Shown here one piece after another: positions 29,246 through 47,997 of a DNA stretch of 64,000 nt; the first letter of the stretch is position 1, and each line of letters opens with the position of its first letter. The DNA is from Thermotoga sp. Ku-13t (lineage in GTDB: Bacteria > Thermotogota > Thermotogae > Thermotogales > DSM-5069), in assembly GCF_011057685.1 (NCBI RefSeq), contig NZ_LNFY01000011.1, forward strand, positions 186,001 to 250,000. Reading direction: 5' to 3'. The position numbers were made by a program, and so were the translations under genes. The notes beneath the pieces are model-generated. The model saw nothing but the letters and a program-made list of their open reading frames with translations. It was not told the DNA's origin and did no database searches.

Positions 29246-29263
29246 GGTGTTCCACGCAGGATG

Positions 29264-29293
29264 AAGGGCCCCGTGATGGGGCCCTTTGTTTTT
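29264..29293 (+). terminator. Rho-independent terminator after the panC relic
   Basis: AAGGGCCCC (29264-29272) pairs perfectly with GGGGCCCTT (29278-29286) across GTGAT, followed by TGTTTTT. No gene ends near it except the panC relic, so it probably ended the ancestral symporter-panC transcript and still insulates the next operon. Confidence 0.88.
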
Positions 29294-29305
29294 GGTGTTG
29301 CACTC

Positions 29306-29334
29306 TTGACAAAAAATGGAAACTGCGTTCTAAT
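29306..29334 (+). promoter_or_regulatory. Promoter of the putative sulfosugar operon
   Basis: Consensus -35 TTGACA (29306-29311), 17-base spacer, -10 TCTAAT (29329-29334). Transcription would start near 29341, inside the LacI-type operator that follows. Confidence 0.85.
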
Positions 29335-29337
29335 ATG

Positions 29338-29355
29338 TGTGGTAACGTTACCACA
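29338..29355. promoter_or_regulatory. LacI-type operator, perfect 18-bp palindrome
   Basis: TGTGGTAACGTTACCACA reads the same on both strands and is centred on CG, the hallmark of LacI/GalR-family operators. It begins 4 bases after the -10, where bound repressor would block initiation. The LacI-family gene at 39273 in the same operon is the obvious candidate regulator. Confidence 0.88.
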
Positions 29356-29371
29356 TCAGGGGGGTGTTTGT

Positions 29372-30646
29372 ATGAAGAGGTTGCTGGTATTCTGCCTCGC
29401 GCTAGTAAGTGTTCTCTCACTCTCGGCAGTGTACAAGACCACGATCAACGTGCTTCTGTGGGACGATGCTCTGACCCAAGCTCTGAAGGCTGGACTTCCC
29501 GATTTTGAAAAGCAAACTGGCATCAAAGTGAACCTCGAACTGGTTCCGAGCGGAACGTTGCTTCAAAAAACCCTGATGAGCATCACGGCACAGAGCGCAG
29601 ATTACGATCTGGTGGCCGTGGATGAACCCAACATCCCGATGGTCGGACCGCTACTGTTGCCGTTCGATCAATGGCCCGAAACAAGGGTCTACCCCAGGCC
29701 AGACATGAACGACATCATGCCTTTGGCCTTCGCTGCAGGTCAGTGGAAAGGTGCGTTCCTCGGCCTACCGGTGAATGCGAACATTTACGTCTGGCTGACG
29801 AGGAGAGACATCATCGAAAAGTACAAAAAAGATGAGTTCAAAGCAGAGTACGGTTACGAGATGCGTGTTCCTCAGACGCTGAACGAACTGCTTGACATGT
29901 CGAAGTTCCTGGCGAAGAAAGACATATACGGCTGGGCACCGTTCACGAAACCGACCGAGGGTGCGACCTGCGAAGCCATTTGGATGTTCGAAAGTTTCGG
30001 CACCAAGGTCCTGCAGGTCGACGAGACCGGTTACAAAGTCGTCCTCGACAAAGACAAGGCCATACAGGCGATCAACTTCTACAAAGAGTTGCTCAAGTAT
30101 GCCCCGGAAGGCGCCCTCGATATGGGACATGCGGAGAGGATGGCTGCCTTCTCCAGCGGAAAGGTCTTTTCCATGTTCAACTGGCCTGCACTCATACCAG
30201 ATCTCGAAAACCCTGAAAAGTCCCTGGTGTACGGCAAGATAGAATACACAGAGCCACCGGCTGGTCCTGCAGGGAAGGCTGCGATCAGGGGTGCCTGGAT
30301 CGTCGCAATACCGAAAGCCGCAAAGGAGAAGCAGGCAGCTGCGGAGTTCGCGTACTGGTGGATGTCCATCGAAACGGGAAAGAAGCTCATACCGAAGGGT
30401 CTCACACCCGCACGCGAATCCTTGCTCAAGGATCCAGAATTTCTCAAAGACAGACCGTGGTTCGCCGGCATTTACAGATCGTTACAGTACGCGGTGGAAA
30501 GGCCCAGATTCGAACACTATCCTGAGGTTTCGAGCATCATAAGGACGCACTGGCTGAACGCCATCTCCAACCGGGTGACTCCCGAGGAAGCCGTGGACAG
30601 GATGGTGAAAGAGGTCAATGAGCTTCTCAAGAAGTACGGCTATTAA
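29372..30646 (+). CDS. Sugar ABC transporter substrate-binding protein (family 1)
   Basis: 424 residues with a signal peptide (MKRLLVFCLALVSVLSLSA). A family 1 solute-binding protein: INVLLWDDALTQALK, DYDLVAVDEPNIPM, then GLPVNANIYVWLTRRD, EGATCEAIWMFESFG and AIPKAAKEKQAAAEFAYWW. It captures sugar outside and delivers it to the two permeases that follow. ATG 29372 follows GGGGGG by about 7 bases. First gene of the LacI-controlled operon, followed at once by a hairpin and by a permease whose gene overlaps it by 29 bases. If the operon degrades sulfoquinovosides, this would be a functional analogue of SmoF; the ligand is not established. Confidence 0.92.
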   Translation: MKRLLVFCLALVSVLSLSAVYKTTINVLLWDDALTQALKAGLPDFEKQTGIKVNLELVPSGTLLQKTLMSITAQSADYDLVAVDEPNIPMVGPLLLPFDQWPETRVYPRPDMNDIMPLAFAAGQWKGAFLGLPVNANIYVWLTRRDIIEKYKKDEFKAEYGYEMRVPQTLNELLDMSKFLAKKDIYGWAPFTKPTEGATCEAIWMFESFGTKVLQVDETGYKVVLDKDKAIQAINFYKELLKYAPEGALDMGHAERMAAFSSGKVFSMFNWPALIPDLENPEKSLVYGKIEYTEPPAGPAGKAAIRGAWIVAIPKAAKEKQAAAEFAYWWMSIETGKKLIPKGLTPARESLLKDPEFLKDRPWFAGIYRSLQYAVERPRFEHYPEVSSIIRTHWLNAISNRVTPEEAVDRMVKEVNELLKKYGY

Positions 30647-31514
30647 GAAGAGGGGGCTCAGCCCTCTCTTCTTGTTTGTTTTTCCGGCCCTAATCGTCAT
30701 CTTCGCCATCTCGATCTATCCTGTCATCTTCTCGCTGTATCTCTCTTTCACCGACAGGACACTCCTCTATCTGCGCGCACCGAAATTCGTCGGTTTCTCG
30801 AACTACTCTAACGTCGTATCGGACAAGCTCTTCTGGCATTCTCTGAAGCTTCAGCTGAGCTTCATGCTGTTCGCGATCCCTCTTGAACTGTTTGTTGGTT
30901 TTCTGGTGGCCCTTCTCTTCCTGAAAGATTTTCCGCTGTGCAGATTGCTCAGATCGTTGCTCATGCTTCCTGTCTTCATTCTGCCTGTCGTGTCTGGACT
31001 GACCTGGAGATTGATGCTGCAGCCTGGATACGGTCTTCTGGGGAGCTTTTTCAACTCCATTTCTCTCGGTCCGAAATCCTGGCTCGCCGATACGAAATAC
31101 GCCTTCGTGACCGTCGTGCTGCAGGATATCTGGCGCATGTGGCCGTTCATGTTCATGATCATCTACGCCGGTTTGTCTTCACTTCCGAGCGAATATCTGG
31201 AAGCAGCACAGATCGACGGTGCGAAGTTCTGGCAGCAAATCTTTCACATCATCTTTCCGCTCTTGAGATCGGTGATGACGATGGCGGTGCTCTTGAGGAT
31301 GATCGACGCTCTGAGGGTCTTCTCTGAAGTGTATGTGATGACCTACGGGGGACCTGCGAACGCGACGCTTTTGCTTCCTCTGTACATCCACAAGCAGGCC
31401 TTCGAATTCGGAAAGGTGGCCTACGCCTCGGCCGCTTCGGTCTTCCTCCTGGCAGTTTCTCTCGCACTCTCGTTCTACCTGGTCAGAGCGAGTTTCAGGG
31501 GTGAAGTGTCGTGA
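30618..31514 (+). CDS. Sugar ABC transporter permease (MalF-type)
   Basis: 298 residues, six membrane helices. The EAA loop, where the ATPase docks, reads EYLEAAQIDGAKFWQQIFHIIFPLL. It pairs with the next gene to form the channel for the binding protein upstream. ATG 30618 overlaps the preceding gene by 29 bases; no other in-frame start precedes the first helix. No ATPase gene is in the operon, so a shared ATPase elsewhere in the genome must energise it. Confidence 0.92.
   Translation: MSFSRSTAIKKRGLSPLFLFVFPALIVIFAISIYPVIFSLYLSFTDRTLLYLRAPKFVGFSNYSNVVSDKLFWHSLKLQLSFMLFAIPLELFVGFLVALLFLKDFPLCRLLRSLLMLPVFILPVVSGLTWRLMLQPGYGLLGSFFNSISLGPKSWLADTKYAFVTVVLQDIWRMWPFMFMIIYAGLSSLPSEYLEAAQIDGAKFWQQIFHIIFPLLRSVMTMAVLLRMIDALRVFSEVYVMTYGGPANATLLLPLYIHKQAFEFGKVAYASAASVFLLAVSLALSFYLVRASFRGEVS
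30645..30673 (+). promoter_or_regulatory. Hairpin at the end of the binding-protein gene
   Basis: AAGAAGAG (30645-30652) pairs with CTCTTCTT (30666-30673), extended by GGG/CCC inside with a one-base bulge. It starts within the binding-protein stop codon and lies inside the coding region of the overlapping permease, so the sequence serves both as structure and as codons. Confidence 0.65.
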
Positions 31515-32323
31515 AAAAAGCAAAGTCCCTGAGGCTGATTCTGTGCCTGATCCTGGTGGCCATCGAACTGGTGCCGATAGGAGTCGTGATAACGAACAGC
31601 TTCAAAAGGGACATAGACATCTGGGCCAGGGGACCTTTTTACTTCAAACCGACACCGAAAAGCTACAGCGCAGTGCTTGAGAATTCAGACTTTCGTCTCG
31701 CGCTGAAGAACTCGCTGATCGTCGCGACCAGTTCCATGGCTGTGTCGGTGTTCTTCGGTTCGATGGCCTCCTTTGGACTGGTAAGGTTCCGTTTCAGAAT
31801 AAACACGTTCTTGATATTTCTGATCCTGATGCTGAGAATGATTCCTCAGATCACCCTTGCCCTTCCTTTCTACATCCTTTTCAGAAACCTTGGGCTGAAA
31901 GACACGGTGATGGGACTTGCAGTGGCACACACAAGCTTCAATCTACCCTACGTGATAGCGCTCCTTTTGCCTTTCTTCGCGAGCATACCGAAAGAGTACG
32001 AAGAAGCCGCAAGGGTGGACGGTTGCAAACCTTTTTCGATCTACTGGAGGATATTCTTCCCGCTCGCAGCACCCGGCATCGTGGTGGCAGCAGTTTTCGC
32101 GTTTCTGATGTCCTGGAACGAGTTCCTCTACGCTCTGGTTTTGAGCGGGCCAAGATCAAAAACCGCCCCTATCGTTGTGAACGCCTTTCTGGGCCAATAC
32201 GCACCATTGTGGGGACAGCTTTCCGCAGGTGCGACGATCATGCTCATTCCTGTGTTCGCCATCACGCTGGGATTTCAGAAATACATCATAAAAGGTCTAT
32301 CGAGCGGAGGGCTGAAAGGTTGA
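31511..32323 (+). CDS. Sugar ABC transporter permease (MalG-type)
   Basis: 270 residues, six membrane helices. The EAA loop is EYEEAARVDGCKPFSIYWRIFFPLA; the C-terminal region ATIMLIPVFAITLGFQKYIIKGLSSGG is typical of MalG-type subunits. The GTG start overlaps the previous stop (GTGA), coupling translation of the two permeases. Followed after 13 bases by the transaldolase gene, which ties transport to catabolism. Confidence 0.93.
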   Translation: MKKAKSLRLILCLILVAIELVPIGVVITNSFKRDIDIWARGPFYFKPTPKSYSAVLENSDFRLALKNSLIVATSSMAVSVFFGSMASFGLVRFRFRINTFLIFLILMLRMIPQITLALPFYILFRNLGLKDTVMGLAVAHTSFNLPYVIALLLPFFASIPKEYEEAARVDGCKPFSIYWRIFFPLAAPGIVVAAVFAFLMSWNEFLYALVLSGPRSKTAPIVVNAFLGQYAPLWGQLSAGATIMLIPVFAITLGFQKYIIKGLSSGGLKG

Positions 32324-32336
32324 TGGAGGTGAGCGG

Positions 32337-33008
32337 ATGAAACTGTTCCTGGACAGTGCGAAGCTGGAAGAGATAAAGTACGCCATCGAAAAATGGCACA
32401 TCGATGGGATCACCACGAATCCGAGACATCTGTTCGCGGCGAACATGACTGTGGAACGGTTTGCAGAGGAAATCAAGAGGATCGTTGAAGGTACCGATAT
32501 AAGCGTCAGCCTTGAGGTGAACCCCCACCTCAAAACCGCCGACGAGATAGTCGAAGAAGCCAGACGCCTGGCATATCTCAGTCCAAACTTCGTCATCAAG
32601 GTGCCGGCCACCGAAGTCGGCTTCGAGGCGCTCGCGCGTTTGGCGAAACAGGGTGTGAAGGTGAACATGACGCTGATCTTCACTCCGTTCCAGGCACTTC
32701 AGGCGGCGAGACTCGGAGCCCATTACATAAGCGTTTTTGTGGGCTGGAAAGAGGAGAGGGGCGATTTCGACGCTGAGCTGGTGTCGAAGATCGTGAAGAT
32801 AATCAAAAACTACAACTTTTCATCCAAAATCCTGGTCGCTGCGATCAGATCTGCGAAGCACATCGTTGACGCCGCCCTCGCCGGTGCGGACATCATCACG
32901 GCATCCTGGGAAGTCTACAAGAGATGTTTCGAAAATCCATACACGCAGATGGGTCTGGACATCTTCTGTAATGCCTGGAACGAACTTTACAGGAAGGGAG
33001 GGTCCTGA
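32337..33008 (+). CDS. FSA/TalC-type transaldolase (candidate sulfofructose transaldolase)
   Basis: 223 residues, the size of small FSA/TalC transaldolases. The barrel carries DGITTNP, the Schiff-base Lys88 in NFVIKVPAT, and ILVAAIRSAKHIVDAALAGADI. In FSA and TalC the loop after strand 6 reads VGR and its Arg contacts the substrate phosphate; here it is VGW (Trp137), so the phosphate anchor is missing. That fits a non-phosphorylated substrate head group such as a sulfonate. In the sulfo-TAL pathway a transaldolase cleaves 6-deoxy-6-sulfofructose to sulfolactaldehyde, passing the C3 unit to glyceraldehyde-3-P. Role inferred from residues and neighbours, not proven. Confidence 0.8.
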   Translation: MKLFLDSAKLEEIKYAIEKWHIDGITTNPRHLFAANMTVERFAEEIKRIVEGTDISVSLEVNPHLKTADEIVEEARRLAYLSPNFVIKVPATEVGFEALARLAKQGVKVNMTLIFTPFQALQAARLGAHYISVFVGWKEERGDFDAELVSKIVKIIKNYNFSSKILVAAIRSAKHIVDAALAGADIITASWEVYKRCFENPYTQMGLDIFCNAWNELYRKGGS

Positions 33009-33290
33009 ATGGTGGATTTCCTGGTACACAGAGACGGCGATCATGTGGGTGTGGCGGTCAGAGACATCAAGAAGAATGAACACGTTTCCGGAAAGACCGT
33101 CGATGGGCAGTTCAGTTACGAGCTCGACGCGGTTCAGGACATACCCCTGGGCCACAAGATTGCGCTGAGAGACATCCAGAAGGGTGAGAAAATCGTCGAG
33201 TACGGCGAGATCATCGGCGTGGCGACTGACAACATCGCTAAGGGCGCGCACGTTCACGTACACAACATTCGAAGTTTGAGATGGGGGTGA
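33009..33290 (+). CDS. UxaA-family small subunit, SAF domain (SuyA-like)
   Basis: 93 residues: a stand-alone SAF domain (LVHRDGDHVGVAVRDIKKNE, then IPLGHKIALRDIQKGEKIVEYG and HVHVHNIRSLRWG), equivalent to the N-terminal part of altronate/galactarate dehydratases. In sulfolactate sulfo-lyase the same family is split into SuyA (about 90 residues) and SuyB (about 390), just as here. GGAGGG lies 7 bases before ATG. The next gene encodes the large subunit 5 bases later. An altronate-type dehydratase is the alternative, but no altronate pathway genes adjoin it. Confidence 0.82.
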   Translation: MVDFLVHRDGDHVGVAVRDIKKNEHVSGKTVDGQFSYELDAVQDIPLGHKIALRDIQKGEKIVEYGEIIGVATDNIAKGAHVHVHNIRSLRWG

Positions 33291-33295
33291 TCGAA

Positions 33296-34450
33296 ATGAA
33301 GAGAGAGATACTGGCCTACAGACGGCCCGACGGATCAGTTGGTGTGAGAAACTACGTTCTGATACTTCCCATAGATGACATATCAAACGCGGTGGCCGAG
33401 GCGGTTGAAAAGATTGTGAACGGCACTCTCGCGATCCCACATCCTTACGGTAGATTGCAGTTCGGAAAAGATCTGGAACTGTTCTTCAAAACTCTGATCG
33501 GGACGGGCTTGAATCCGAACGTGGCAGCCGTGGTCGTGATAGGGGTAGAACCGAAATGGACTTGCAAGGTGGCGGAGGAAATCGCGAAGAGCGGAAAATG
33601 GGTTGAAGCCTTTTGGGTGGAAGGTTTTGGACAGCTCAGAACGATCGAAAGAGCCGCGCGCACGGCGGTGAAGTTCGTGGAAGATGCAACGAACCTGAAG
33701 AGGGAAACGGTGGATCTGTCAGATTTGATCGTGAGTTTGAAGTGTGGAGAGTCCGACACGACGTCCGGTCTGGGTGCCAACAGGGTTGTGGGCAGGTTCA
33801 CGGAAAGGTTTCTGGAGATGAGTGGCACGGTGCTGTTCGGTGAAACGACGGAACTTACCGGTGCAGAGCACATCTTGATCCAGAGGATAAAGTCCGAACA
33901 GGAGAGACAGAAATTCATCCGGATGTTCGACGAGTACCAGCAGCTTGTGAAATCTCAGGGCGTGGACCTGCTCGGTTCACAGCCGACGCAGGGAAACATA
34001 GCTGGAGGGTTGAGCACGATAGAAGAAAAAGCTCTCGGTAACTTGCAGAAGATAGGGAACACGATGGTGGACGGCGTGCTCGAGCCGGCAGAAAGACCAC
34101 CAGCGAAAGGCCTCTACTTCATGAACACTTCCTCAGCTGCAGCCGAGGCGGTGACGCTCTTCGCAGCCGCAGGGGCCGCGATCCATCTGTTCCCGACCGG
34201 CCAGGGCAACCCCATAGGCAATCCGATCGTGCCCGTCATAAAGATCACCGCCAATCCGAAGACAGCGCAGTGCATGTTCGAACACATCGATGTGGACGTC
34301 TCCGATCTGCTTCGGCTTAAGATCTCCCTGGACGAAGCTACGGAAAGATTGTTCAGCAGGGTCGTTGAAACCGCGTGTGGCAGATTCGTGAAGGCTGAAA
34401 TCCTGAACCACAGAGAGTTCGTGCCGACCAAGCTCTATCCAAGCGCGTAG
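33296..34450 (+). CDS. UxaA-family large subunit (SuyB-like; candidate (R)-sulfolactate sulfo-lyase)
   Basis: 384 residues. Catalytic part of the altronate dehydratase/sulfolactate lyase family: RRPDGSVGVRNYVLILP, VIGVEPKWTCKVAEEI, SLKCGESDTTSGLGANR, ELTGAEHIL and FPTGQGNPIGNPIVPVIK are family-typical, with the conserved Cys residues that hold a metal or Fe-S centre. SuyAB eliminates sulfite from (R)-sulfolactate giving pyruvate. ATG 33296 is chosen for GGGGGT 7 bases upstream. The split-gene arrangement, with an aldehyde dehydrogenase downstream and transaldolase upstream, favours the sulfolactate role over altronate dehydration. Sequence alone cannot separate the two with certainty. Confidence 0.8.
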   Translation: MKREILAYRRPDGSVGVRNYVLILPIDDISNAVAEAVEKIVNGTLAIPHPYGRLQFGKDLELFFKTLIGTGLNPNVAAVVVIGVEPKWTCKVAEEIAKSGKWVEAFWVEGFGQLRTIERAARTAVKFVEDATNLKRETVDLSDLIVSLKCGESDTTSGLGANRVVGRFTERFLEMSGTVLFGETTELTGAEHILIQRIKSEQERQKFIRMFDEYQQLVKSQGVDLLGSQPTQGNIAGGLSTIEEKALGNLQKIGNTMVDGVLEPAERPPAKGLYFMNTSSAAAEAVTLFAAAGAAIHLFPTGQGNPIGNPIVPVIKITANPKTAQCMFEHIDVDVSDLLRLKISLDEATERLFSRVVETACGRFVKAEILNHREFVPTKLYPSA

Positions 34451-34463
34451 CGGGGTGAAGCGC

Positions 34464-35882
34464 ATGAAGATGCTTGTGGCAGGAAAGTGGATCGACAGGG
34501 ACAGAAAGATAGAGGTCCTTTTTCCCTACGACGGTAGTGTGGTCGATACGGTACCCGTGACCGAAGAGGAAGACGTCGAGCGAGCCCTGGAAAGTGCCGT
34601 AGAAGGTGCACAGTTGATGCGCAATCTCTCCGCCTATGAAAGGTCCACGATTCTGAAGCGCACGGCAGATTTGATCCGTCAGAACGAGGCAAAGTTCACT
34701 GACACGATCGTTATGGAGGTTGGAAAGACAGTTAAGGAAGCACGAGCCGAAGTGGTGAGGACGGCCGAACTGTTCGAACTGTGCAGTGAAGAGGCGAAGA
34801 GGATACACGGAGAAACCATCCCCTTCGACTCGCTAAAGGGTTCAGAACACAAAACTGGTTACTTCGTGAGAGAACCGGCCGGCGTCGTCGTGGCGATAAC
34901 ACCGTTCAACGTACCGCTGGCACTGTGTGCTCACAAGATCAGTCCGGCCATCGCTGCAGGCAACGCCGTGATCGTCAAGCCGGCTTCCAAAACCCCTTTG
35001 AGCACACTCCTTTTGGGTGAGACGTTGCTCGAAGCTGGGCTACCGCCGCAGGCGCTGAGTGTTCTCACCGGACCGGGTGGTGGAGTGGGAATGAAACTGG
35101 TCAGAGACAGAAGGGTCCGTGTTGTGAGCTTCACGGGGAGCGTCGGCGTTGGAGAGGAAATAGCGAAGAACGCTGGACTGAAGAAGATCCTGATGGAACT
35201 TGGTTCTAACTCTCCCGTCATAGTCACGAAGAGTGCAGACCTTCAGAAGGCCGTTAAGGCCGTGGTTTCCGGAGGTTACTCCATCGCAGGTCAGGTGTGC
35301 ATATCCGTCCAAAGGGTTTACGTTCAGAGGGAAGTCTTTTCAGAGTTCGTAGAGCTCCTGTTGGAGGCTGTGAAAGAATTGAAGGTCGGTGATCCGAGGC
35401 TCAAGACGACGGATATGGGACCTGTGATAGACGAACAGAACGCACAGAGGATCGCAGAGTGGTTCGACGAAGCGATCCAAGCCGGCGCGAAACTCGCAAC
35501 GGGTGGCCGAAGAAACTACACGCTCGTCGAGCCAACGGTCCTGCTCGAAGTTCCGAAAAAAACAAAGATCATGAACGAGGAGCTCTTTGGACCTGGCGTC
35601 GCCGTGAACAGCTTCGAAACGTTGCAGGAGGCCATAGACGAAGCGAACTCGACCCGTTACGGTCTTCAGGCTTCGATATTCACCTCCGATCTGCTCGAAG
35701 CGTTCGAGGCTATCAAAAAGTTGCAGTTCGGAGGTGTACTGATCAACGAGGGCACCAGGTACAGGGCGGACTTCATGCCCTATGGCGGTTACAAAGACAG
35801 CGGCATAGGAAGAGAGGGCGTGAGGTTCGCAATAGAAGAGCTCACAGAAATAAAAACGGTCGTGTTCGAAACCAGGAGGTGA
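34464..35882 (+). CDS. Aldehyde dehydrogenase (candidate sulfolactaldehyde dehydrogenase)
   Basis: 472 residues, NAD(P)-dependent aldehyde dehydrogenase superfamily, closest in style to lactaldehyde/GapN-type enzymes. ITPFNVPLALCAHK and VKPASKTPLS bind cofactor, the general-base Glu is in LMELGSNSP, and the nucleophile Cys is in AGQVCISVQ; NEELFGPGVAV is near the C-terminus. In sulfoglycolysis such an enzyme oxidises (S)-sulfolactaldehyde to (S)-sulfolactate. ATG 34464 follows GGGGTG by 6 bases and is preferred to GTG 34455. Function assigned by position between SuyB-like and sulfoquinovosidase-like genes. Confidence 0.85.
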   Translation: MKMLVAGKWIDRDRKIEVLFPYDGSVVDTVPVTEEEDVERALESAVEGAQLMRNLSAYERSTILKRTADLIRQNEAKFTDTIVMEVGKTVKEARAEVVRTAELFELCSEEAKRIHGETIPFDSLKGSEHKTGYFVREPAGVVVAITPFNVPLALCAHKISPAIAAGNAVIVKPASKTPLSTLLLGETLLEAGLPPQALSVLTGPGGGVGMKLVRDRRVRVVSFTGSVGVGEEIAKNAGLKKILMELGSNSPVIVTKSADLQKAVKAVVSGGYSIAGQVCISVQRVYVQREVFSEFVELLLEAVKELKVGDPRLKTTDMGPVIDEQNAQRIAEWFDEAIQAGAKLATGGRRNYTLVEPTVLLEVPKKTKIMNEELFGPGVAVNSFETLQEAIDEANSTRYGLQASIFTSDLLEAFEAIKKLQFGGVLINEGTRYRADFMPYGGYKDSGIGREGVRFAIEELTEIKTVVFETRR

Positions 35883-35886
35883 CGCG

Positions 35887-37857
35887 ATGAACATCGAGAC
35901 TTCGAGCGCCGGCTTTCGCGCAAAATACAAAGACCTGATGCTTGAACACACTTTCGAAAGGCCCCTAATCCATTACGGACGCGGAATAGCAACTTACCAC
36001 ATGTCGCACGGGAACTTCAGAATAGAAGACGAACTGTTCTGCAAGTACCCTGCAAAACGTTTCAGTGTGAACGAAAACGTTGTATTGTTTGATGAAACGA
36101 TAAAAATGAGTCTCACAGAGAAAGACGGAAAATTACACGTGAGATTCGAACCACTCCGGAACGATTTCAACAGGCTCTGGTTCAGATTGCCCGCGTCGGA
36201 GAACGAGTTCGTTTACGGTTGTGGGGAGCAGTATTCTCACTTCAACCTCAGGGGCAGGAAACTACCCATCTGGGTTTCGGAACAGGGAGTGGGACGCAAC
36301 AAAAAGGACCTGATCACACTGTTTGTGGACTGGGCTTACGATGCTGGGGGAGATTGGTACACGACCTATTATCCACAGCCAGTGTTCGTCAGTTCAAAGG
36401 GCTATTTCTGCATCGTGAACGGTTCTTCGTACATGGAGTTCGATTTCAGAAAACCGGACGTTTTTGAAGTATGCGTCTGGCAGATGCCGATCGAGATCAT
36501 CCTTTACAGAAGCGATGACTGGTCGGGCCTCTTTGGAAAATTGAGCGAGCTTTTGGGAACACAGCCCGTCCTGCCAGAATGGGTCCTGGATGGCGCGATA
36601 CTCGGCATTCAGGGCGGAACGAAAACGATGCTCGAAAAGATCGAGAAGATGTCAAAGAACGGTTTGAAGATAGCCGGCGTGTGGATCCAGGACTGGGAAG
36701 GAAAACGTGTGACGAGCTTTGGAAAACAATTGATGTGGAACTGGGTTTACTCTGAAGAGCTGTATCCGAACCTGTCGAAAACCATAGAGGATCTGCACTC
36801 ACAAAGAATCAGGGTGCTGGGCTACATCAATCCCTTTCTTGCACTCGAAGGATCACTTTACAGGGAAGCTTCAGAGAAGAACTATCTGGTGAAAAGATCG
36901 AACGGACAGGAATATCACATCGTTGTGACGACCTTCCCGGCGGCGATCGTCGATGTGACGAAGCCTGAAGCGTTCGAGTGGCTCAAAGGTATCATCAAAT
37001 CGAATATGATCGGAATAGGTCTGTCCGGCTGGATGGCAGACTATGGAGAATACCTCCCCACCGACGCCGTCCTGTCCAGCGGTGAGCCGGCGGAGACGTT
37101 CCACAATAGGTTCCCCGTGGAATGGGCGAGGTTGAATTATGAGGCTGTGAAAGAGAGCGAAAGATCCGATCTGGTCTTCTTCATGCGCTCAGGTTATTTG
37201 AACAGCTCCAGGTTCACCCCACTCTACTGGCACGGAGATCAGCTGGTCAATTGGTCCGTGGACGATGGTATAGCTTCCGTGATACCTGCAAAGCTGTCGC
37301 TTTCCATGTGCGCAGTTTCTCAGATACATTCCGACATAGGCGGTTACACCACGCTCGCAAAGAACGTTCCAGAAATGATCAGGACGGTCAGAACGAAAGA
37401 ACTGTTCATGAGGTGGACCGAGCTGAGCGTGTTCGAACCCGTCATGAGGACGCATGAAGGTAACTGGCCGGACGAGAACTGGCAGTTCGATTCCGACGAA
37501 GAAACGATAAAACATTTCGTCGAGATGACGGATCTTCATGTGAAATTGAAAAATTATTTCCTCGCGTGCTTGAAGGAATACCAGCAAAAAGGATTGCCAC
37601 TCTTCAGGCCTCTGTTTCTCCACTATCCACACGAAGAGAGGTGCTGGACGGAACAGTACGAATTTTTGTTCGGCAGGGACATCCTTGTGGCGCCCGTGCT
37701 CAAACCGAACGTGGATAGATGGCAGGTCTATCTCCCGCAGGACGAATGGATACATTACTGGAGCGGTAAGCTGCTGCGCGGTGGCGTGCACGAAGTCGAA
37801 GCGCCGATCGGTCGACCACCGTTCTTCATTAGGGCAGGGAGTGAGATGAAGTGGTGA
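35887..37857 (+). CDS. GH31 glycosidase of the sulfoquinovosidase (YihQ) subgroup
   Basis: 656 residues. The barrel follows E. coli YihQ closely in order and spacing: GIQGGT, GVWIQDWEGKRVTSFG, GWMADYGEYLPTD, WHGDQLVNWSVDDG, HSDIGGYTT and FLFGRDILVAPV. Nucleophile Asp385 and acid/base Asp451. Of the five sulfonate-recognition positions in YihQ (Q262, Q288, R301, W304, Y508) four are kept as Gln242, Gln268, Trp284 and Tyr487, but the Arg is Gln281 (codon CAA at 36727). It lacks a signal peptide, so it acts in the cytoplasm after import. AGGAGGTG precedes the ATG. It either hydrolyses sulfoquinovosides with altered binding or has changed substrate. Confidence 0.88.
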   Translation: MNIETSSAGFRAKYKDLMLEHTFERPLIHYGRGIATYHMSHGNFRIEDELFCKYPAKRFSVNENVVLFDETIKMSLTEKDGKLHVRFEPLRNDFNRLWFRLPASENEFVYGCGEQYSHFNLRGRKLPIWVSEQGVGRNKKDLITLFVDWAYDAGGDWYTTYYPQPVFVSSKGYFCIVNGSSYMEFDFRKPDVFEVCVWQMPIEIILYRSDDWSGLFGKLSELLGTQPVLPEWVLDGAILGIQGGTKTMLEKIEKMSKNGLKIAGVWIQDWEGKRVTSFGKQLMWNWVYSEELYPNLSKTIEDLHSQRIRVLGYINPFLALEGSLYREASEKNYLVKRSNGQEYHIVVTTFPAAIVDVTKPEAFEWLKGIIKSNMIGIGLSGWMADYGEYLPTDAVLSSGEPAETFHNRFPVEWARLNYEAVKESERSDLVFFMRSGYLNSSRFTPLYWHGDQLVNWSVDDGIASVIPAKLSLSMCAVSQIHSDIGGYTTLAKNVPEMIRTVRTKELFMRWTELSVFEPVMRTHEGNWPDENWQFDSDEETIKHFVEMTDLHVKLKNYFLACLKEYQQKGLPLFRPLFLHYPHEERCWTEQYEFLFGRDILVAPVLKPNVDRWQVYLPQDEWIHYWSGKLLRGGVHEVEAPIGRPPFFIRAGSEMKW

Positions 37858-39260
37858 AAGTAAAGGTCGGACTTGTTGGCCTGATGCAACCGAACTTTCG
37901 AGGCGACAAGGAAAGTGTCTACAGAAGGTGCGTGGAAGGTTTGAAAGAGCTTTCAGAAGAGCTCGGCTTCGAACTGTTTTCTTACTCGAAACTGCTGAGC
38001 GATGTGAACGAGGCGAAGAAAGCTAAAGAAGAGATCGAAAACCAGGCTGTGGACTTTCTTCTGATTCTGAACGTTTCGTTCGCATCTGGTTATCTGGTGC
38101 AAACTCTGGCTCAGACGGATGCATTCATAGGTCTGTGGTCCGTCCCGGAGCAATCGGATTCAGGCCCTCTGCCGCAGAACTCTTTCTGCGCGATGAATCT
38201 CAACGCGAGTTTGATGAAGCTCATGACCACGCACAAAAAATTCAAATGGTTCTACGGTTACGCGGAGGAAAAACTTTTCCGTGAGAGGTTTTCCACAACG
38301 ATCAGGGCTCTGAATGCCTTGAAGAATCTGAAAGATAAAAGGATCGTTCAGATCGGAGGTCACGCACCAGGATTCGATAGTCTGGCGTACGATGCAGAAA
38401 AGATCAGAGAGATCTTCGGTGTGCACATCAAAGAAGTACCGTTCGAGACACTGAAAGATCTCATGCAAAAACAAAAAGACGTTGAAGACATCGTCGCAGA
38501 CCTCAAACGGAGGCATGAAAGCATCGATCCGCTTTCCGAAAGAACGCTCGTTCCGGCCGCATCTTTGATAAGAACGCTCAGAGAAATCTGTGAAACTGAG
38601 AAGTGTGGAGCGATCGCACTGCTTTGCTGGCCCAAATTCAGGAGCGAACTTTCCATGGTGCCGTGCGCGTCAATGGGTTACCTCAACGATGAAGGCTTCG
38701 TTGTGGCGTGCGAAGGAGATGTGCTGGGAGCTCTGAGCATGCTCGTTCTGAAACTCATCAGCAATCATCCAGCGATGCTCTTCGACGTTGTGAGCCTGGA
38801 TCTGAAAGACGAGAACCTGCTTTTCTGGCACTGCGGTGTCGGTATGAAGTCTTATTCGAACCGTTTGTTCATGAAAAAACATTTCAATCCGGGTCCTTAC
38901 GATCCTGAGAAAGGCTGGCTGGAGATGGCACCGGTTTCGGAGATGGTGGTTGATCCGATGCCAGCGACCGTTTTGAGGTTAACTGAGAACGGAACAAAAG
39001 CGTTCGTCTTCGAAGGCGAATTCCTCGGCGATGTGAAACCTTCCTTTGACGGCAGCAGGGGCTGGTTCTCGAGCCTGAAGGATCATACGGGCAGGAAACT
39101 TCAAGTTCTTGACCTCGTGAACACGCTGATGTGTCACAGGCTGGAACACCACTTCGCGGTCGTGCGAGGCCACTGGGCGAAGCACTTGGTGGAGATGTTC
39201 CAGTGGCTCGGTGTAGAATTACTTGAGACGGTTCCATATTCGGAAAACAGCGTGTGTTGA
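37851..39260 (+). CDS. L-fucose/L-arabinose isomerase-fold protein (candidate sulfoquinovose isomerase)
   Basis: 469 residues. Three-part FucI/AraA-like architecture: an N-terminal Rossmann-like half (LVGLMQPNFRGDKESV, VDFLLILNVSFASG) and a C-terminal isomerase domain with the hallmark CASMGYLNDEGFVVACEGDVLGAL and later HFAVVRGHWAKHLVEM. Such enzymes interconvert aldoses and ketoses with Mn2+. In this operon the reaction expected is sulfoquinovose to sulfofructose, upstream of the transaldolase. The GTG start overlaps the GH31 stop. The substrate assignment is by context only; it does not resemble the AGE-type isomerase YihS. Confidence 0.8.
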   Translation: MVKVKVGLVGLMQPNFRGDKESVYRRCVEGLKELSEELGFELFSYSKLLSDVNEAKKAKEEIENQAVDFLLILNVSFASGYLVQTLAQTDAFIGLWSVPEQSDSGPLPQNSFCAMNLNASLMKLMTTHKKFKWFYGYAEEKLFRERFSTTIRALNALKNLKDKRIVQIGGHAPGFDSLAYDAEKIREIFGVHIKEVPFETLKDLMQKQKDVEDIVADLKRRHESIDPLSERTLVPAASLIRTLREICETEKCGAIALLCWPKFRSELSMVPCASMGYLNDEGFVVACEGDVLGALSMLVLKLISNHPAMLFDVVSLDLKDENLLFWHCGVGMKSYSNRLFMKKHFNPGPYDPEKGWLEMAPVSEMVVDPMPATVLRLTENGTKAFVFEGEFLGDVKPSFDGSRGWFSSLKDHTGRKLQVLDLVNTLMCHRLEHHFAVVRGHWAKHLVEMFQWLGVELLETVPYSENSVC

Positions 39261-39272
39261 GCGGGTGAAAAA

Positions 39273-40259
39273 ATGAGAAAAGCGAAGAGACCCACGATCA
39301 AGGATATCGCATCGCTCAGTGGTTATTCCATAAACACCGTGTCGAGGGCACTGCGAGGAAGAGGCTACGTGAGTGCGGAGGCGAAGCAGAAGATTTTGCA
39401 GATCGCCGAGAAGATAGGTTATTACAAGGACAAGACGGCGCTCTCTTTGAGGAACCGTCAGACCAAGATCATAGGTGTCGTGATAGTCGACAATTCGAAC
39501 CCGTTCTACGCAGACGTGTTGAGAGGCATAGAGGAAGTCGCGTACGCGGAAAGTTACGAAACGATCCTGGTCAACAGCTACCGCGATCCGGAGAGGGAGA
39601 AAGCTGCGCTCATAAGGTTGATCGAACGGCGTGTCGATGGTTTGATAATCACCTCGACGCAGCAGAACTGGGACTTTCTGCTCTGGGTTCGAAACACAGG
39701 AATAAACGTGGTCCTGGTTGGTTCACACCATGAAGGCTTGCTCTCCGTCCGGCCGGACGACATCAAGGCAGGTTATCTGGCTGCAGAACATCTGGTGCAG
39801 ATGGGTCACAGAAAGATCGTGATGCTGAACTCCCTGCCGCACAAGTTCACATCGCAGATGAGGTTGAAAGGTTTTTTGAACGGCGTGGGCGATGAGGCAC
39901 AGGTCCGCGTGATAAACTCCGCGGAGGGTTTCGAGAACGCCTATCGAGCGTTCGAAGATTTCCTGAAAAACCTGTGGAATGGAGAAACGGCGGTGTTCTG
40001 CTACAATGACATCTTCGCCTACGCGGTCATAAAGTGTCTGAACGATCGAGGGCTCCGAGTTCCAGAAGATATGAGCGTTGTTGGGGTGGACGATCTGGTC
40101 TTTTCGTCGATCGTTTCACCCCCGTTGACCACCGTGAGGATAGACAGGTTTCAGCTCGGTAGAACCGCGTTCCAGGGTGTTCTCGGCAAGCTAGACCGGG
40201 AAGAAACGATCGTTGATGTTGAGCTGATTGTACGCAACAGTGTGAAGCACATCGGTTGA
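39273..40259 (+). CDS. LacI-family transcriptional regulator
   Basis: 328 residues. N-terminal HTH (about 8-27; TIKDIASLSGYSINTVSRAL with hinge helix after residue 50) and a periplasmic-binding-like effector domain (VVIVDNSNPFYADVLRG, VDGLIITST, VGVDDLVFSSIVSPPLTTV). Likely represses the operon by binding the palindrome at 29338-29355 and is released by a sugar of the pathway. It lies inside the operon, 12 bases after the isomerase, so it would be autoregulated. Confidence 0.93.
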   Translation: MRKAKRPTIKDIASLSGYSINTVSRALRGRGYVSAEAKQKILQIAEKIGYYKDKTALSLRNRQTKIIGVVIVDNSNPFYADVLRGIEEVAYAESYETILVNSYRDPEREKAALIRLIERRVDGLIITSTQQNWDFLLWVRNTGINVVLVGSHHEGLLSVRPDDIKAGYLAAEHLVQMGHRKIVMLNSLPHKFTSQMRLKGFLNGVGDEAQVRVINSAEGFENAYRAFEDFLKNLWNGETAVFCYNDIFAYAVIKCLNDRGLRVPEDMSVVGVDDLVFSSIVSPPLTTVRIDRFQLGRTAFQGVLGKLDREETIVDVELIVRNSVKHIG

Positions 40260-40297
40260 TGCTCGAACCTGATTCCCGTTCGCCGGGAGGACGCAAC

Positions 40298-41026
40298 ATG
40301 AAGAAAGACGAATATTCCTTCACACAAGTTGAACCAGGTGTTTGGCACATCGTCGATTACAGGAAAGACAGTATGTACTTAGTCGAAGGAGAACGTGAAG
40401 CGCTCCTGATCGATACCGGCATGGGTGAAGGGGACTTGAAGGCTCTCGTGAACTCGATCACGAAGAAACCCACTTCTGTAGTGATCACCCACGCGCACTG
40501 GGACCACATCATGCAAGCGGATCAGTTCGAGAAGGTTTACCTCAACCACAGAGACCTTCCCATAATAGAATTGTTCAAGTTGAAAGTGCCAGTGCAAAGG
40601 TTCATGGACGTGAGCGAAGGCTGTGTCTTCAATCTCGGTGGGAGGTTTCTGGAGGTCGTCGAGGTTCCCGGTCACACACCCGGCTCCATAGTGCTGATAG
40701 ACAGACAAAGCAAGCTTTTGTTCAGTGGGGATGCGATCGGCGCGGGACACACGTGGATGCACCTTCCAGGCTGCCTGCCACTCGCAGTTTATCTTGAGAG
40801 TCTCGAGAGGCTTTTGCAGATCGATGGCTTTGAGAAGATATACCACGGCCATCTTGCCGAGTCGAAGGTTTTCGATGTTCAGCACCTCAAAGACCTGATC
40901 GAGGCGGTTCGGCTGGTCACCGAAGGAAAGCTGGTGGGTCAACCTTACAGCTTTGGCAACTTCGAAGGGCTCTACGTCACCCACCGCTCTGCGGTGCTGG
41001 TGTACGATCCAAACAACGTGAGGTGA
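40298..41026 (+). CDS. Metallo-beta-lactamase-fold hydrolase
   Basis: 242 residues. Metal-binding motif THAHWDH (His65, His67, Asp69, His70), further ligands His in VPGHTPGS, Asp in LFSGDAIG and His in YHGHL near residue 190. The superfamily hydrolyses thioesters, lactones, phosphodiesters and more. Within a sugar operon a lactonase or glyoxalase II-like detoxification role is possible. ATG 40298 follows GGGAGG by 8 bases; the open frame reaches back to 40256 without a ribosome site. No known sulfoglycolysis enzyme of this fold comes to mind, so its job is open. Confidence 0.83.
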   Translation: MKKDEYSFTQVEPGVWHIVDYRKDSMYLVEGEREALLIDTGMGEGDLKALVNSITKKPTSVVITHAHWDHIMQADQFEKVYLNHRDLPIIELFKLKVPVQRFMDVSEGCVFNLGGRFLEVVEVPGHTPGSIVLIDRQSKLLFSGDAIGAGHTWMHLPGCLPLAVYLESLERLLQIDGFEKIYHGHLAESKVFDVQHLKDLIEAVRLVTEGKLVGQPYSFGNFEGLYVTHRSAVLVYDPNNVR

Positions 41027-41066
41027 AAGCGCAGATACGATCGTTCCTTCGTGGGGGGTGCGTTTT

Positions 41067-42515
41067 GTGGAGAAAGAAAGGCTGAGTCTGAAAACCAAGA
41101 TCGGTTACGGCATTGGGGATCTCTACGGAGGAGGAGCCTTCATAATCATCGGTACCTACTATCTCTACTTCCTCACAGATGTGATGCGCATCAATCCGGC
41201 CTTGGCAGGAACTGTGATCATGGTGAGCAAGATCTGGGACGCCATCACGGACCCCATCATGGGCATCATCTCTGACAAGACCAGAACCAAATTCGGCAGG
41301 CGCAGACCTTATTTCTTTTTGGGAATTCCACTAATATTTCTTTCCTTCTTACTGATGTGGTACGCACCAATTTTCGAGAGCGAGTTACCACGTTTTTCTT
41401 ACGCGCTCTTCAGCTACATGTTCTTCGCCACGATCATCACGATGGTCATGATTCCATACAACGCACTCGCACCCGAGCTGACCATGGATTACAGTGAGAG
41501 AATCTCTTTGAATTCTTTCAGGATGTTCTTTTCGATGCTTTCTTCAGTTCTGTGTGCCATACTACCGATGGAGATCGTCAAACGCTTCCCATCCCCCAGA
41601 ACCGGTTTCGCGGTGATGGGCACCTTCTTTGGAGTCTTTTTTGCACTGCCTTTCATACTGGTCTTCACCGCCACGAGAGAAAGGCCAGAATTCTGGAAGG
41701 AGACAAAGTTCAGTTTCAGAGAGAACTTCATCGAACCGTTCAAAAACCGCAGCTTTGTCCAAGTCCTTTTGATGTATCTGTTCTCTTTTTTGAGTATGGA
41801 CGTTATCATAAGCATCTTAGTGTACTACATGACCTACTATCTGAACAGGGGACAGATCACGAACCTCGCCCTCGGGGCACTAATCATCTCTGAGATTATC
41901 TTCATTCCATTCTGGTCAGCGCTGGGGAAAAGGTTTGGAAAGAAGACCGCCTTCATACTCGGCCTGACGGTATGGATCGTTGCGATGCTCTTCAGCTTCG
42001 CGATACTACCGACGAGCCCCACGTTCGTCATCTATCTGTTTGCGGCGGTGGTGGGTGCTGGAACCAGCTCCGTGGTGGTCATGATCTACTCGATGTTCGC
42101 TGACATACCGGATACGGACGAGCTCAGGAGTAGTCAGCGCCGAGAAGGAATCTACTCGGGACTGTTCACCTTCATGAGGAAACTCAGCTCCGCGGTGGGA
42201 CTGTTCTTGATATCTAACATCATCGCCCTGGCGGGTTACATACCACCGAAGGAAGAGATCGTCGATGGAGTGAAAAGGTTGGTTCAGCAACCGCAGAGTG
42301 AATCGTTCATTATGGCTTTGAGATTCTTCTTCGCGTTGCTCCCGATGGGATTGTTGTTGCTGAGTCTGTTCGCAGCTATTAAGTATCCTTTGACGAAATC
42401 CGTGCACGAGAAGCTGAAAACGATCCTGGAGATGAAGAGAAAAGGAGAGGAATTACCGCAGGAGATGGTGAAGGAAGAAGAACATTTGAAAAAGCTCTTG
42501 CTCGGGGAACGATAA
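41067..42515 (+). CDS. GPH-family sugar:cation symporter (MelB/YihO-like)
   Basis: 482 residues, about 12 membrane helices. Signature stretches: KIGYGIGDLYGGGAF at the start, SKIWDAITDPIMGIISDKT and RTKFGRRRPYFFLG (the GPH motif with the cation-binding Asp residues), and DIPDTDELRSSQRREGIYSG. E. coli YihO and YihP, genes of its sulfoquinovose operon, belong to this same family, so the gene fits the operon's proposed role as importer or as exporter of a sulfonate product. GTG 41067 is chosen for GGGGGG 8 bases upstream. Confidence 0.9.
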   Translation: MEKERLSLKTKIGYGIGDLYGGGAFIIIGTYYLYFLTDVMRINPALAGTVIMVSKIWDAITDPIMGIISDKTRTKFGRRRPYFFLGIPLIFLSFLLMWYAPIFESELPRFSYALFSYMFFATIITMVMIPYNALAPELTMDYSERISLNSFRMFFSMLSSVLCAILPMEIVKRFPSPRTGFAVMGTFFGVFFALPFILVFTATRERPEFWKETKFSFRENFIEPFKNRSFVQVLLMYLFSFLSMDVIISILVYYMTYYLNRGQITNLALGALIISEIIFIPFWSALGKRFGKKTAFILGLTVWIVAMLFSFAILPTSPTFVIYLFAAVVGAGTSSVVVMIYSMFADIPDTDELRSSQRREGIYSGLFTFMRKLSSAVGLFLISNIIALAGYIPPKEEIVDGVKRLVQQPQSESFIMALRFFFALLPMGLLLLSLFAAIKYPLTKSVHEKLKTILEMKRKGEELPQEMVKEEEHLKKLLLGER

Positions 42516-43880: not shown

Positions 43881-45005
43881 TTGCTCACAGAACTGGAAGC
43901 GACGATACTGAGACTGATACGAGACAATCCCGGCATTTCCAGGCTCGACATAGCCAGGAAGCTTTCCATCAGCAAACCACTGGTGACGAACGTTGTGGCG
44001 AGGTTGATCAAAAGGGGCCTGGTGGTCGAATCTGGAACGAGGAAGATGCCGGCCGGTAGGCCAAAGGTGTCGCTGAAGTTCGTGCCCGATGCCTGGTACT
44101 GCGTCGGTATCGAACTGGAAGAACGTTACTTCGAACTGATCGTCACAGACCTGTCAGGTCGCATCGTCCACTCGGAGCAGGAGAAGATCGACAGTTTGCA
44201 GAAAGATCAACTCATTGATCTGTGCCAGGAGAGAGTGGAACGCTCGCTCGAAAAAAACAGTTTGCCGAAGGAGAAGATCCTCGGTGTGGGCATAGGCATA
44301 GCAGGGATGGTGGATCCGACGAGTCGTGTGGTGAGGACCGCACCAGCGCTCGGTCTGACGAACTTCGATCTTGCATCCGTTCTGACAGAGAGGTTGAACC
44401 TGAACGTGATCGTTGTGAACAGGGTGAAGGCTGCCGCACTGGCCGAACACCGCGTGGGTGCTGCAAAAGGCGCTCAGAACGTTCTCTTCGTTTTCATAGA
44501 CAGCGGTCTTGGCTCCGCAGTTCTACTGAACGGGAAGATATATGAGGGCTTTCACGGCAAGGCGGGGGAGTTCGGCTGGATGGTCACAGACCTGGATCGT
44601 TCAGAGCCTGAGCTTTGTGAAATCGAAGATTTCGGGCATCTGGCAAGACGTTTTTCTGGACACGCGATCACGATCAGACTGAAAGATGCGAAGGTGAACG
44701 TCGAAGACATCTTCGATGTGCAAATCGACGGGAAATTCGAGTGCCTGTTGATCAGTGGTCTGAGGCACGTCGCCGCGGCCCTTGCAAACGCAATACTGCT
44801 TTTCGATCCACAACAAATCGTCATCAAGGGCAGGATTGGGCACAAACACTACGAACGCATCGTCGAACTGATGATGCCGATTTTGAAGCAGATCCTTCCA
44901 CCCCAGTTTCACGAGAACCTGAATCTGCACAAAGGCTTGATCGAAGATTTCGACGTTGCGCTTGGAGCTGTTTTCACCGCTCAACAGAGGTTCATGGGAC
45001 TGTGA
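43881..45005 (+). CDS. ROK-family transcriptional regulator (NagC/XylR-like)
   Basis: 374 residues. A winged HTH (about 1-60; PGISRLDIARKLSISKPLVTNVVARL) is fused to a ROK sugar-kinase-like domain (GVGIGIAGMVD, FVFIDSGLGSAVLLNGKIYEG, GFHGKAGEFGW). The usual Cys-rich zinc motif after that point is not seen: the segment reads SEPELCEIEDFG with one Cys. TTG start with GGAGGG 6 bases upstream. It heads the second sugar cluster and probably represses it until its sugar binds. Confidence 0.92.
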   Translation: MLTELEATILRLIRDNPGISRLDIARKLSISKPLVTNVVARLIKRGLVVESGTRKMPAGRPKVSLKFVPDAWYCVGIELEERYFELIVTDLSGRIVHSEQEKIDSLQKDQLIDLCQERVERSLEKNSLPKEKILGVGIGIAGMVDPTSRVVRTAPALGLTNFDLASVLTERLNLNVIVVNRVKAAALAEHRVGAAKGAQNVLFVFIDSGLGSAVLLNGKIYEGFHGKAGEFGWMVTDLDRSEPELCEIEDFGHLARRFSGHAITIRLKDAKVNVEDIFDVQIDGKFECLLISGLRHVAAALANAILLFDPQQIVIKGRIGHKHYERIVELMMPILKQILPPQFHENLNLHKGLIEDFDVALGAVFTAQQRFMGL

Positions 45006-46269: not shown

Positions 46270-46279
46270 TTCAAAAATG

Positions 46280-46300
46280 GCCCGGGCGTTCTGCCCGGGC
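46280..46300 (+). promoter_or_regulatory. Intercistronic hairpin after the binding-protein gene
   Basis: GCCCGGGC (46280-46287) and its copy at 46293-46300 pair over 8 bp across GTTCT, followed by only three T residues. It lies 10 bases after the binding-protein stop, before the permease start, and probably attenuates or protects rather than fully terminates. Confidence 0.72.
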
Positions 46301-46321
46301 TTTCAAAGGAGTAGACGGGAC

Positions 46322-47185
46322 TTGAGGAGACAACACTACGCTTGGTTTTTCCTCTTACCGAACCTTGTCATATTCACGATCTTCGTCGTTACACCGGCTC
46401 TGAGCAGCTTCTACTTCTCTTTCACTGACTACGACATGCTCAGGTTCTCGGGAAAGTTCGTGGGCCTTTCGAACTTCCACTACCTGTTCTGCACCGAAAG
46501 TGGTTTTCCAAAGGTCTTGATGAGGACCTTCATTTATTCTGCCATGGTGGTTCCACTCGCGTTCTTCACCTCTCTGTTCCTTGCGGTGATAACGAGTTCT
46601 GATCTCATCAAGGGTAAGGCTTTTCTGAGGGCACTGTTCTACTGGCCATGGTTGCTCTCTCCCTCGATAATAGGCATTTCCTGGAAATGGTTTCTCGACT
46701 ACGATGATGGTTTGATCAATATACTCCTTCTGAAGAACAATCTTTCACCGGTTCCCTGGCTTCTGGATCGAAGGCTCGCCTTTTTGAGCGTCGTGCTTGT
46801 CACAGTCTGGAACGTCGCAGGTTACTTCATGGTCATGTTCAATTCGGCATTGACAGCCATCCCAACTGAGGTTTATGAGGCGGCCGCCCTGGACGGTGCG
46901 GGTCGCTGGGTGAGGTTCTGGAAGATCATCTTCCCGTTGCTCAAACCCACAGCTGTACTGGTACTCGTTCTGAGCACGATCATGTCGATGAGAAGCTTCG
47001 AGATCATCTACGTGTTCACCGCGGGAGGTCCTGGAACGGCCACCACCGTGCTCGCGCAGAAAATTTACTACACGGCGTTCCTCGAACGTAGACTCGGTAT
47101 GGCTTCAGCCATGTCGGTGATCCTTTTTGCAATCTTGATAACACTATCGTTGCTGCAGTTCAAGATCTTGGAGGAAGAAGTATGA
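46322..47185 (+). CDS. Sugar ABC transporter permease (MalF/UgpA-type)
   Basis: 287 residues, six membrane helices. EAA loop EVYEAAALDGAGRWVRFWKIIFPLL. An ATG-led frame opens at 46277, but that would place the GC hairpin inside the protein and add a non-family N-terminus; TTG 46322 (begins MRRQHYAWFFLLPNLVIF), behind AAAGGAG, is the better start. Partner of the next permease; no ATPase gene nearby. Confidence 0.9.
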   Translation: MRRQHYAWFFLLPNLVIFTIFVVTPALSSFYFSFTDYDMLRFSGKFVGLSNFHYLFCTESGFPKVLMRTFIYSAMVVPLAFFTSLFLAVITSSDLIKGKAFLRALFYWPWLLSPSIIGISWKWFLDYDDGLINILLLKNNLSPVPWLLDRRLAFLSVVLVTVWNVAGYFMVMFNSALTAIPTEVYEAAALDGAGRWVRFWKIIFPLLKPTAVLVLVLSTIMSMRSFEIIYVFTAGGPGTATTVLAQKIYYTAFLERRLGMASAMSVILFAILITLSLLQFKILEEEV

Positions 47186-47997
47186 GGAAAGCGCTGCTGA
47201 TCGTTCTGAACGTTTCAGTTTATCTCTTCGCTTTTTTGTACGTCTCACCCATCGTCTGGACGATCTTTTCGAGTTTCAAAGAGGAAAAAGATCTGTTCTC
47301 ATGGCCTCCGAAGCTGATCAGCCAGCCCACGCTCACCAACTTCGTTCAAGTGCTGTACAAGACTCAGTTCGGCCTGTTCTTCAGAAATTCGTTCGTGGTT
47401 TCTCTGTCCGCGACCTTCATCACCGTGGTGATAAGCGTGATGGGAGGATACGCCCTGGCCAAGTATCAGTTCAGATTCAAAAACTATGTTTCTACGTTCA
47501 TCCTGTCCACACTCATGATCCCACTTCAGGTCATCATGGTACCGATCTATCTGGTACTGTCTAAGCTCGGCATGATAAACACGCTGTGGGGACTCATCAT
47601 ACCACCAGCGGCAACACCCACGGGGATCTTTCTCGCGCAGAAGTACATGATCTCCGCGATACCTGATTCCGTGATAGAGAGTGCGAGGATGGACGGTGCT
47701 AACGAGTTTCAAATCTTCTTCAGAATCGTTCTGCCCCTATCGCAACCACTCGTCACTGCGCTCGCCGTGCTGTCTTTCACCTGGCGATGGAACGATTTTC
47801 TGTGGCCGCTGATCGTCGTGGGTTCACCGAAGCTCTACACGATACAGCTCGCGCTCGGATTGTACTCAGGTGAACACATCGTGCAGTGGGGTCCACTGCT
47901 GGCCATGACGGTTTTATCGATGGTACCGGTTCTGATCGTCTTCATCGCCCTGCAGAAATACTTCGTCAAAGGCATCACCACGGGTGCGATCAAGTGA
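47182..47997 (+). CDS. Sugar ABC transporter permease (MalG/UgpE-type)
   Basis: 271 residues, six membrane helices, EAA-type loop DSVIESARMDGANEFQIFFRIVLPLS, and C-terminal VLIVFIALQKYFVKGITTGAIK. The ATG overlaps the previous stop (ATGA). Completes the ABC importer of the ROK cluster. Confidence 0.93.
   Translation: MRKALLIVLNVSVYLFAFLYVSPIVWTIFSSFKEEKDLFSWPPKLISQPTLTNFVQVLYKTQFGLFFRNSFVVSLSATFITVVISVMGGYALAKYQFRFKNYVSTFILSTLMIPLQVIMVPIYLVLSKLGMINTLWGLIIPPAATPTGIFLAQKYMISAIPDSVIESARMDGANEFQIFFRIVLPLSQPLVTALAVLSFTWRWNDFLWPLIVVGSPKLYTIQLALGLYSGEHIVQWGPLLAMTVLSMVPVLIVFIALQKYFVKGITTGAIK

Follow-up and report, generated by a model that had tools for sequence, protein, structure and literature searches.

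In the solved sulfoquinovosidases (SQases), Arg301 of YihQ or its equivalent binds the sulfonate of the substrate, and all characterized SQases carry this Arg, long regarded as the hallmark of sulfonate recognition. Thermotoga sp. Ku-13t encodes a close GH31 relative of these enzymes that carries Gln at this site. The locus raises the question of whether the protein acts on sulfoquinovose (SQ) glycosides with a differently built pocket, cleaves another substrate, has recently lost the arginine or only appears to lack it through a miscalled base. Annual SQ production is about 10 billion tons, and estimates of its turnover rely in part on the detection of YihQ-type genes.

The window, a 64,000-nt stretch of assembly GCF_011057685.1 (contig NZ_LNFY01000011.1, positions 186,001-250,000), was analyzed, and all coordinates are given within it. 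The gene and its key residues, the latter placed by alignment to YihQ, are as follows.

35887-37857, + strand: GH31 SQase-like enzyme of the Gln-type clade, 656 aa (NF007746, phmmer, Foldseek)
36610-36612, + strand: Gln242, equivalent to YihQ Q262
36688-36690, + strand: Gln268, equivalent to YihQ Q288
36727-36729, + strand: Gln281, codon CAA, at the YihQ Arg301 site
36736-36738, + strand: Trp284, equivalent to YihQ W304
36931-36933, + strand: Thr349, at the YihQ Glu369 site
37039-37041, + strand: Asp385, catalytic nucleophile, equivalent to YihQ D405
37237-37239, + strand: Asp451, catalytic acid/base, equivalent to YihQ D472
37345-37347, + strand: Tyr487, equivalent to YihQ Y508

The GH31 ORF scored 852 bits against NCBIfam NF007746, a model named 'alpha-glucosidase', above the curated cut-off of 553. 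With Pfam domains PF01055 and PF21365, and with D385 and D451 at the positions of YihQ D405 and D472, it is a GH31 retaining alpha-glycosidase. Its closest solved relatives in a phmmer search of the PDB were SQases throughout: 8R56 (1.4e-202), YihQ 5AED (6e-195), and also 6PNR and 5OHS/5OHY. The HMMER alignment placed GKQLMWNW of the window enzyme without gaps against GKRVMWNW of YihQ (5AED), GKRLMWNW (8R56) and GKRLQWDW (6PNR), and the YihQ numbering was confirmed (262 = Q, 288 = Q, 301 = R, 304 = W, 405 = D, 472 = D, 508 = Y). A sequence-only reading of this DNA had aligned the enzyme to YihQ by spacing. This alignment proved correct, both in assigning Gln281 (CAA) to the Arg301 site and in retaining the nucleophile, the acid/base and the equivalents of Q262, Q288, W304 and Y508. 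The recognition set is thus QQQWY and not QQRWY or KERWY, the sets that include Arg301, and for this reason the enzyme was filed as a variant clade instead of as a canonical YihQ-type member.

Compared with the QQRWY SQases (5AED, 8R56, 6PNR), the window enzyme is about 45% identical and has the same fold (TM 0.96), nucleophile, acid/base and four other recognition residues. It differs from YihQ in the replacement of Arg301 by Gln, Glu369 by Thr and DFGEFYG by VVTTFPA, in Y177W, Y337F, W429F and Q462S, and in an insert after the Tyr508 equivalent. The KERWY SQases (A. tumefaciens, 5OHS) have the fold and catalytic residues in common with it; unlike the window enzyme, they carry Lys/Glu at 262/288 and keep both Arg301 and Glu369. 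A conceptual parallel exists in the unrelated NAD-dependent SQase family, in which a clade with a changed sulfonate-site residue occurs in distinct gene clusters. There, unlike in the window enzyme, the Arg is retained, and the residue that changed is a Leu contributing through its backbone amide.

An AF2 model of the protein (pLDDT 89.6, pTM 0.91) superimposed on the B. megaterium SQase with a TM of 0.96 and an rmsd of 1.5 Å. The first 23 Foldseek matches were all GH31 SQase chains (TM 0.93-0.97), followed by other GH31 proteins at about 0.75. The loop that holds Gln281, with a mean pLDDT of 53 over residues 271-280 and of 70 over 281-290, was predicted too poorly to support any statement on contacts.

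The gene lies in an SQ-catabolic cluster, a co-directional cassette at 29261-39260, with three further genes on its 3' side.

29261-30646, + strand: ABC sugar-binding protein (Pfam SBP_bac_8/SBP_bac_1), also the first gene of related cassettes
30618-31514, + strand: ABC permease 1 (Pfam BPD_transp_1)
31511-32323, + strand: ABC permease 2 (Pfam BPD_transp_1)
32337-33008, + strand: sulfofructose-type transaldolase (best PDB match BmSF-TAL 8bc3)
33009-33290, + strand: SuyA-like subunit with SAF domain (Pfam SAF, 1.1e-10)
33281-34450, + strand: SuyB-like (R)-sulfolactate sulfo-lyase subunit (Pfam GD_AH_second, GD_AH_C)
34455-35882, + strand: aldehyde dehydrogenase (Pfam Aldedh, 2e-157), probably for sulfolactaldehyde as judged from its cassette position
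37851-39260, + strand: divergent SQ-isomerase-like protein of the SftI type (NCBIfam NF048012)
39273-40259, + strand: LacI-type regulator
40256-41026: metallo-beta-lactamase-fold protein, flanked by the LacI and GPH symporter genes
41058-42515, + strand: GPH-type sugar symporter (NCBIfam TIGR00792, 252 bits, over the cut-off)

The transaldolase matched BmSF-TAL 8bc3 in the PDB at 2e-68, compared with 1.6e-44 for the ordinary transaldolase 1vpx. It shares with BmSF-TAL the motifs TNPRH, E-x-NPHL (EVNPHL-like) and FVGWKE, the first two of which are missing from 1vpx; with this nearest relative and these motifs it is the sulfofructose-type transaldolase of a sulfo-TAL cluster. A UxaA-family protein of Cupriavidus pinatubonensis, 57% identical to the GD_AH protein, is encoded with its small partner next to hpsN and hpsO, the location expected of SuyAB. 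The adjacent SAF and GD_AH subunits of the window accordingly match the SuyAB (R)-sulfolactate sulfo-lyase. The isomerase-like protein scored 157.8 bits against NF048012 (E 3.5e-46), under the 700-bit cut-off, and a sequence search of the PDB found no relative of it. Of the genes 3' of the cassette, the metallo-beta-lactamase-fold gene also occurs in L034 but in none of the other related cassettes compared. A second sugar-uptake cluster is located further downstream (regulator-like ORF at 43881, binding protein at 44956, two permeases at 46277-47997).

Clusters combining sulfo-TAL with SuyAB have already been reported for Thermotogae and Chloroflexi (PMC9594981). As far as the part of that report consulted goes, they bring together the transaldolase, SuyAB and the aldehyde dehydrogenase as in the window; it does not mention an altered GH31 recognition set, and the window isomerase differs in being a divergent SftI. 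The pathway is therefore known already, and what is new is the GH31 variant.

Genes of this kind were compared across genomes. Two deep Gln clades occupy TAL-SuyAB-ALDH cassettes: the window enzyme with L034-L036, beside a divergent isomerase, and L049-L057, beside a canonical-type SftI. In L037-L042, the window-type pair of GH31 and isomerase belongs to sulfo-transketolase cassettes, which contain EamA, Fe-ADH, a split transketolase and RpiB. Sulfo-transketolase cassettes of like content, complete in L046 and L048 and partly covered in L047, also house the three Thermotogota Arg forms. The occurrence of either residue in a single cassette type is the strongest indirect sign that the Gln form works as an SQase. 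Nevertheless, Gln alone does not mean SQ, since no SQ genes were recognizable near the Gln forms L058 and L091 of another phylum. Likewise, Arg alone is no proof of SQ, as neither an isomerase nor a transaldolase was recognized beside the Bacillota Arg forms L083, L084 and L086. These three carry an Arg-type GH31 on a Gln-type background, and genes for a class II aldolase and a phosphofructokinase some kb off in L083 and L086 possibly belong to a sulfo-EMP2-like route. L058 and L065-L067 come from a small phylum with large genomes and Gln-type GH31 relatives, an SQ cassette not being seen nearby; at least one of these relatives has a signal-peptide-like N-terminus.

Trees were computed without the trait columns 301 and 364-373. 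The Arg forms, including the YihQ, A. tumefaciens, B. megaterium and E. rectale SQases, formed a clade inside the Gln forms, with further Gln forms outside. A constraint uniting all Thermotogota Gln forms apart from the Arg forms was rejected (AU p = 0.0046). The root depends on the distant GH31 rows L068-L070 and on the small phylum (L058, L065-L067), so the rooting is good, not final. Judged from these sequences, Gln is probably the older residue at this site and the YihQ Arg derived. An ancestral Gln-type pocket that already bound SQ, to which the Arg301 and acidic-369 pair of the characterized SQases was added later, perhaps repeatedly, has in our estimate slightly less than an even chance of being correct.

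Residue 301 does not change alone. At YihQ positions 366-372, canonical Arg forms have D/E-F-G-E-F-Y/D-x, and most Gln forms have V-V/I-T-T-F-P-A. From Arg to Gln forms, Y177 is replaced by W, N/F181 by Y, Y337 by F, W429 by F/Y, and Q462 mostly by S, T, A or V. Position 369 is acidic in all sampled Arg forms and Thr/Ser/Ala in nearly all Gln forms, the single exception being L081, with Gln at 301 and Asp at 369. A small Bacillota group of about 70% mutual identity is mixed: L075, L076 and L078 have Arg with Asp/Glu369, and L077 has Gln with Ala369. Because Arg is nested in Gln and 301 changes with 369 and other positions, the R/Q difference is one between clades and not a point mutation. Parsimony required three changes for each of the two traits. 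In an independent-pairs test of R301 against acid 369, the informative pairs were all concordant; as there were just 2-3 of them, the association is not significant. As a hypothesis, residues 301 and 369 may form a charge pair. A search for a substitute positive charge showed position 280 (K/R) to be basic in 25/25 Thermotogota Gln forms, but the same holds for most Arg forms; K/R125 and His41 are no more than candidates.

The retained catalytic and recognition residues, the overall model, the cassettes, the tree, and a Gln kept under purifying selection with both codons in use make it likely that the window enzyme is an active SQase with a rebuilt sulfonate pocket, belonging to an older Gln-type clade, SQ being the inferred substrate. 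As a retaining alpha-sulfoquinovosidase of the YihQ family, it would act on imported SQ glycosides and free their SQ for isomerization and subsequent cleavage by the sulfofructose transaldolase. Oxidation of the product would yield sulfolactate, which SuyAB would desulfonate, giving pyruvate and sulfite. In the predicted pocket, which would be remodeled and also lack the acidic residue (YihQ Glu369) accompanying the canonical Arg, Gln281, Trp284 and Tyr487 probably bind the sulfonate in place of that Arg. Since Arg301 is the sulfonate binder in solved SQases, its absence could mean weaker or different binding, and no measured activity for any Gln form was found in the literature searched. The Gln-type enzymes might instead cleave another alpha-glycoside, either of another sulfosugar or of a non-sulfonated 6-modified glucoside, and merely share an operon with SQ genes. 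The pocket is indeed altered beyond 301 (at 177, 181, 369, 429 and 462), the adjoining isomerase falls far from canonical SftI, and sulfolactate routes also catabolize other sulfosugars in nature, for example sulfofucose (PMC12421959). Against this, the second Gln clade adjoins a canonical-type SftI in the same TAL-SuyAB-ALDH cassette, Arg and Gln forms interchange within one cassette type, and the transaldolase has sulfofructose-type motifs; we consider such a substrate unlikely. The different head group raised by the sequence-only reading is thus not favored, given the SQ-pathway neighbors and the presence of both forms in the same sulfo-transketolase cassette type. Of the options offered there, the altered sulfonate pocket fits best, although unproven.

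That reading had also implied that Arg was lost by one transition, and the nesting of Arg forms within Gln forms probably reverses this direction. A recent loss that left a weak or decaying SQase in this lineage would agree with CAA being one base from an Arg codon and with the contact of YihQ Arg301 to the sulfonate. Nevertheless, Gln is present in outgroups and in 26/29 of the Thermotogota genomes with an SQase-like GH31 (Arg in 3/29), is older than Arg on the tree and has been retained through synonymous change. With both the tree and the codon usage at Gln281 contradicting it, recent decay was rejected as very improbable. Base 36728 is A in the window sequence, and its having been miscalled, another option raised earlier, is excluded by the relatives. 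L034, from another genome, encodes a protein 96% identical to the window enzyme with CAG as the Gln codon; the two genes differ at 78 nt, 55 of them in third positions. Among 32 Gln-form sequences, 18 use CAA and 14 use CAG. Nothing in support of an error at this base was found, and its probability is negligible.

The variant Gln clade appears to be undescribed, within a pathway that is already described. Gln forms were unmentioned in the literature searched, the scope of which stopped short of the 2018 ACS Cent Sci work on SQase structures and the 2023 JBC work on GH31 subfamilies. The textbook Arg signature misses this Gln-type branch of predicted SQases. In at least one survey, the screen of GH31 proteins used a motif derived from the residues reported for YihQ (PMC8397734); if Arg301 is obligatory in that motif, the thermophile Gln enzymes are dropped. 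Should the Gln pocket be ancestral, signature-based surveys would overlook the older half of the family. If the Gln forms are active, sulfonate recognition would neither depend on the Arg taken as its hallmark nor have begun with it, and the joint change of 301 and 369 would offer a ready test of how an anion pocket is constructed.

Comparison scores between the two types of TAL cassette showed that the remaining genes are about equally related across both, whereas the GH31 and the isomerase are not. The pair therefore seems to have been exchanged as a unit. An AU test on the SuyB-ALDH-SBP backbone did not separate one exchange of the pair from several (p = 0.50). The SftI-like protein, which travels with the window-clade GH31 in sulfo-TAL and sulfo-TK cassettes, may be a separate isomerase subfamily. 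In L051 (2711-3425), the sulfofructose-type transaldolase gene appears split into two ORFs, by a frameshift, an assembly error or decay.
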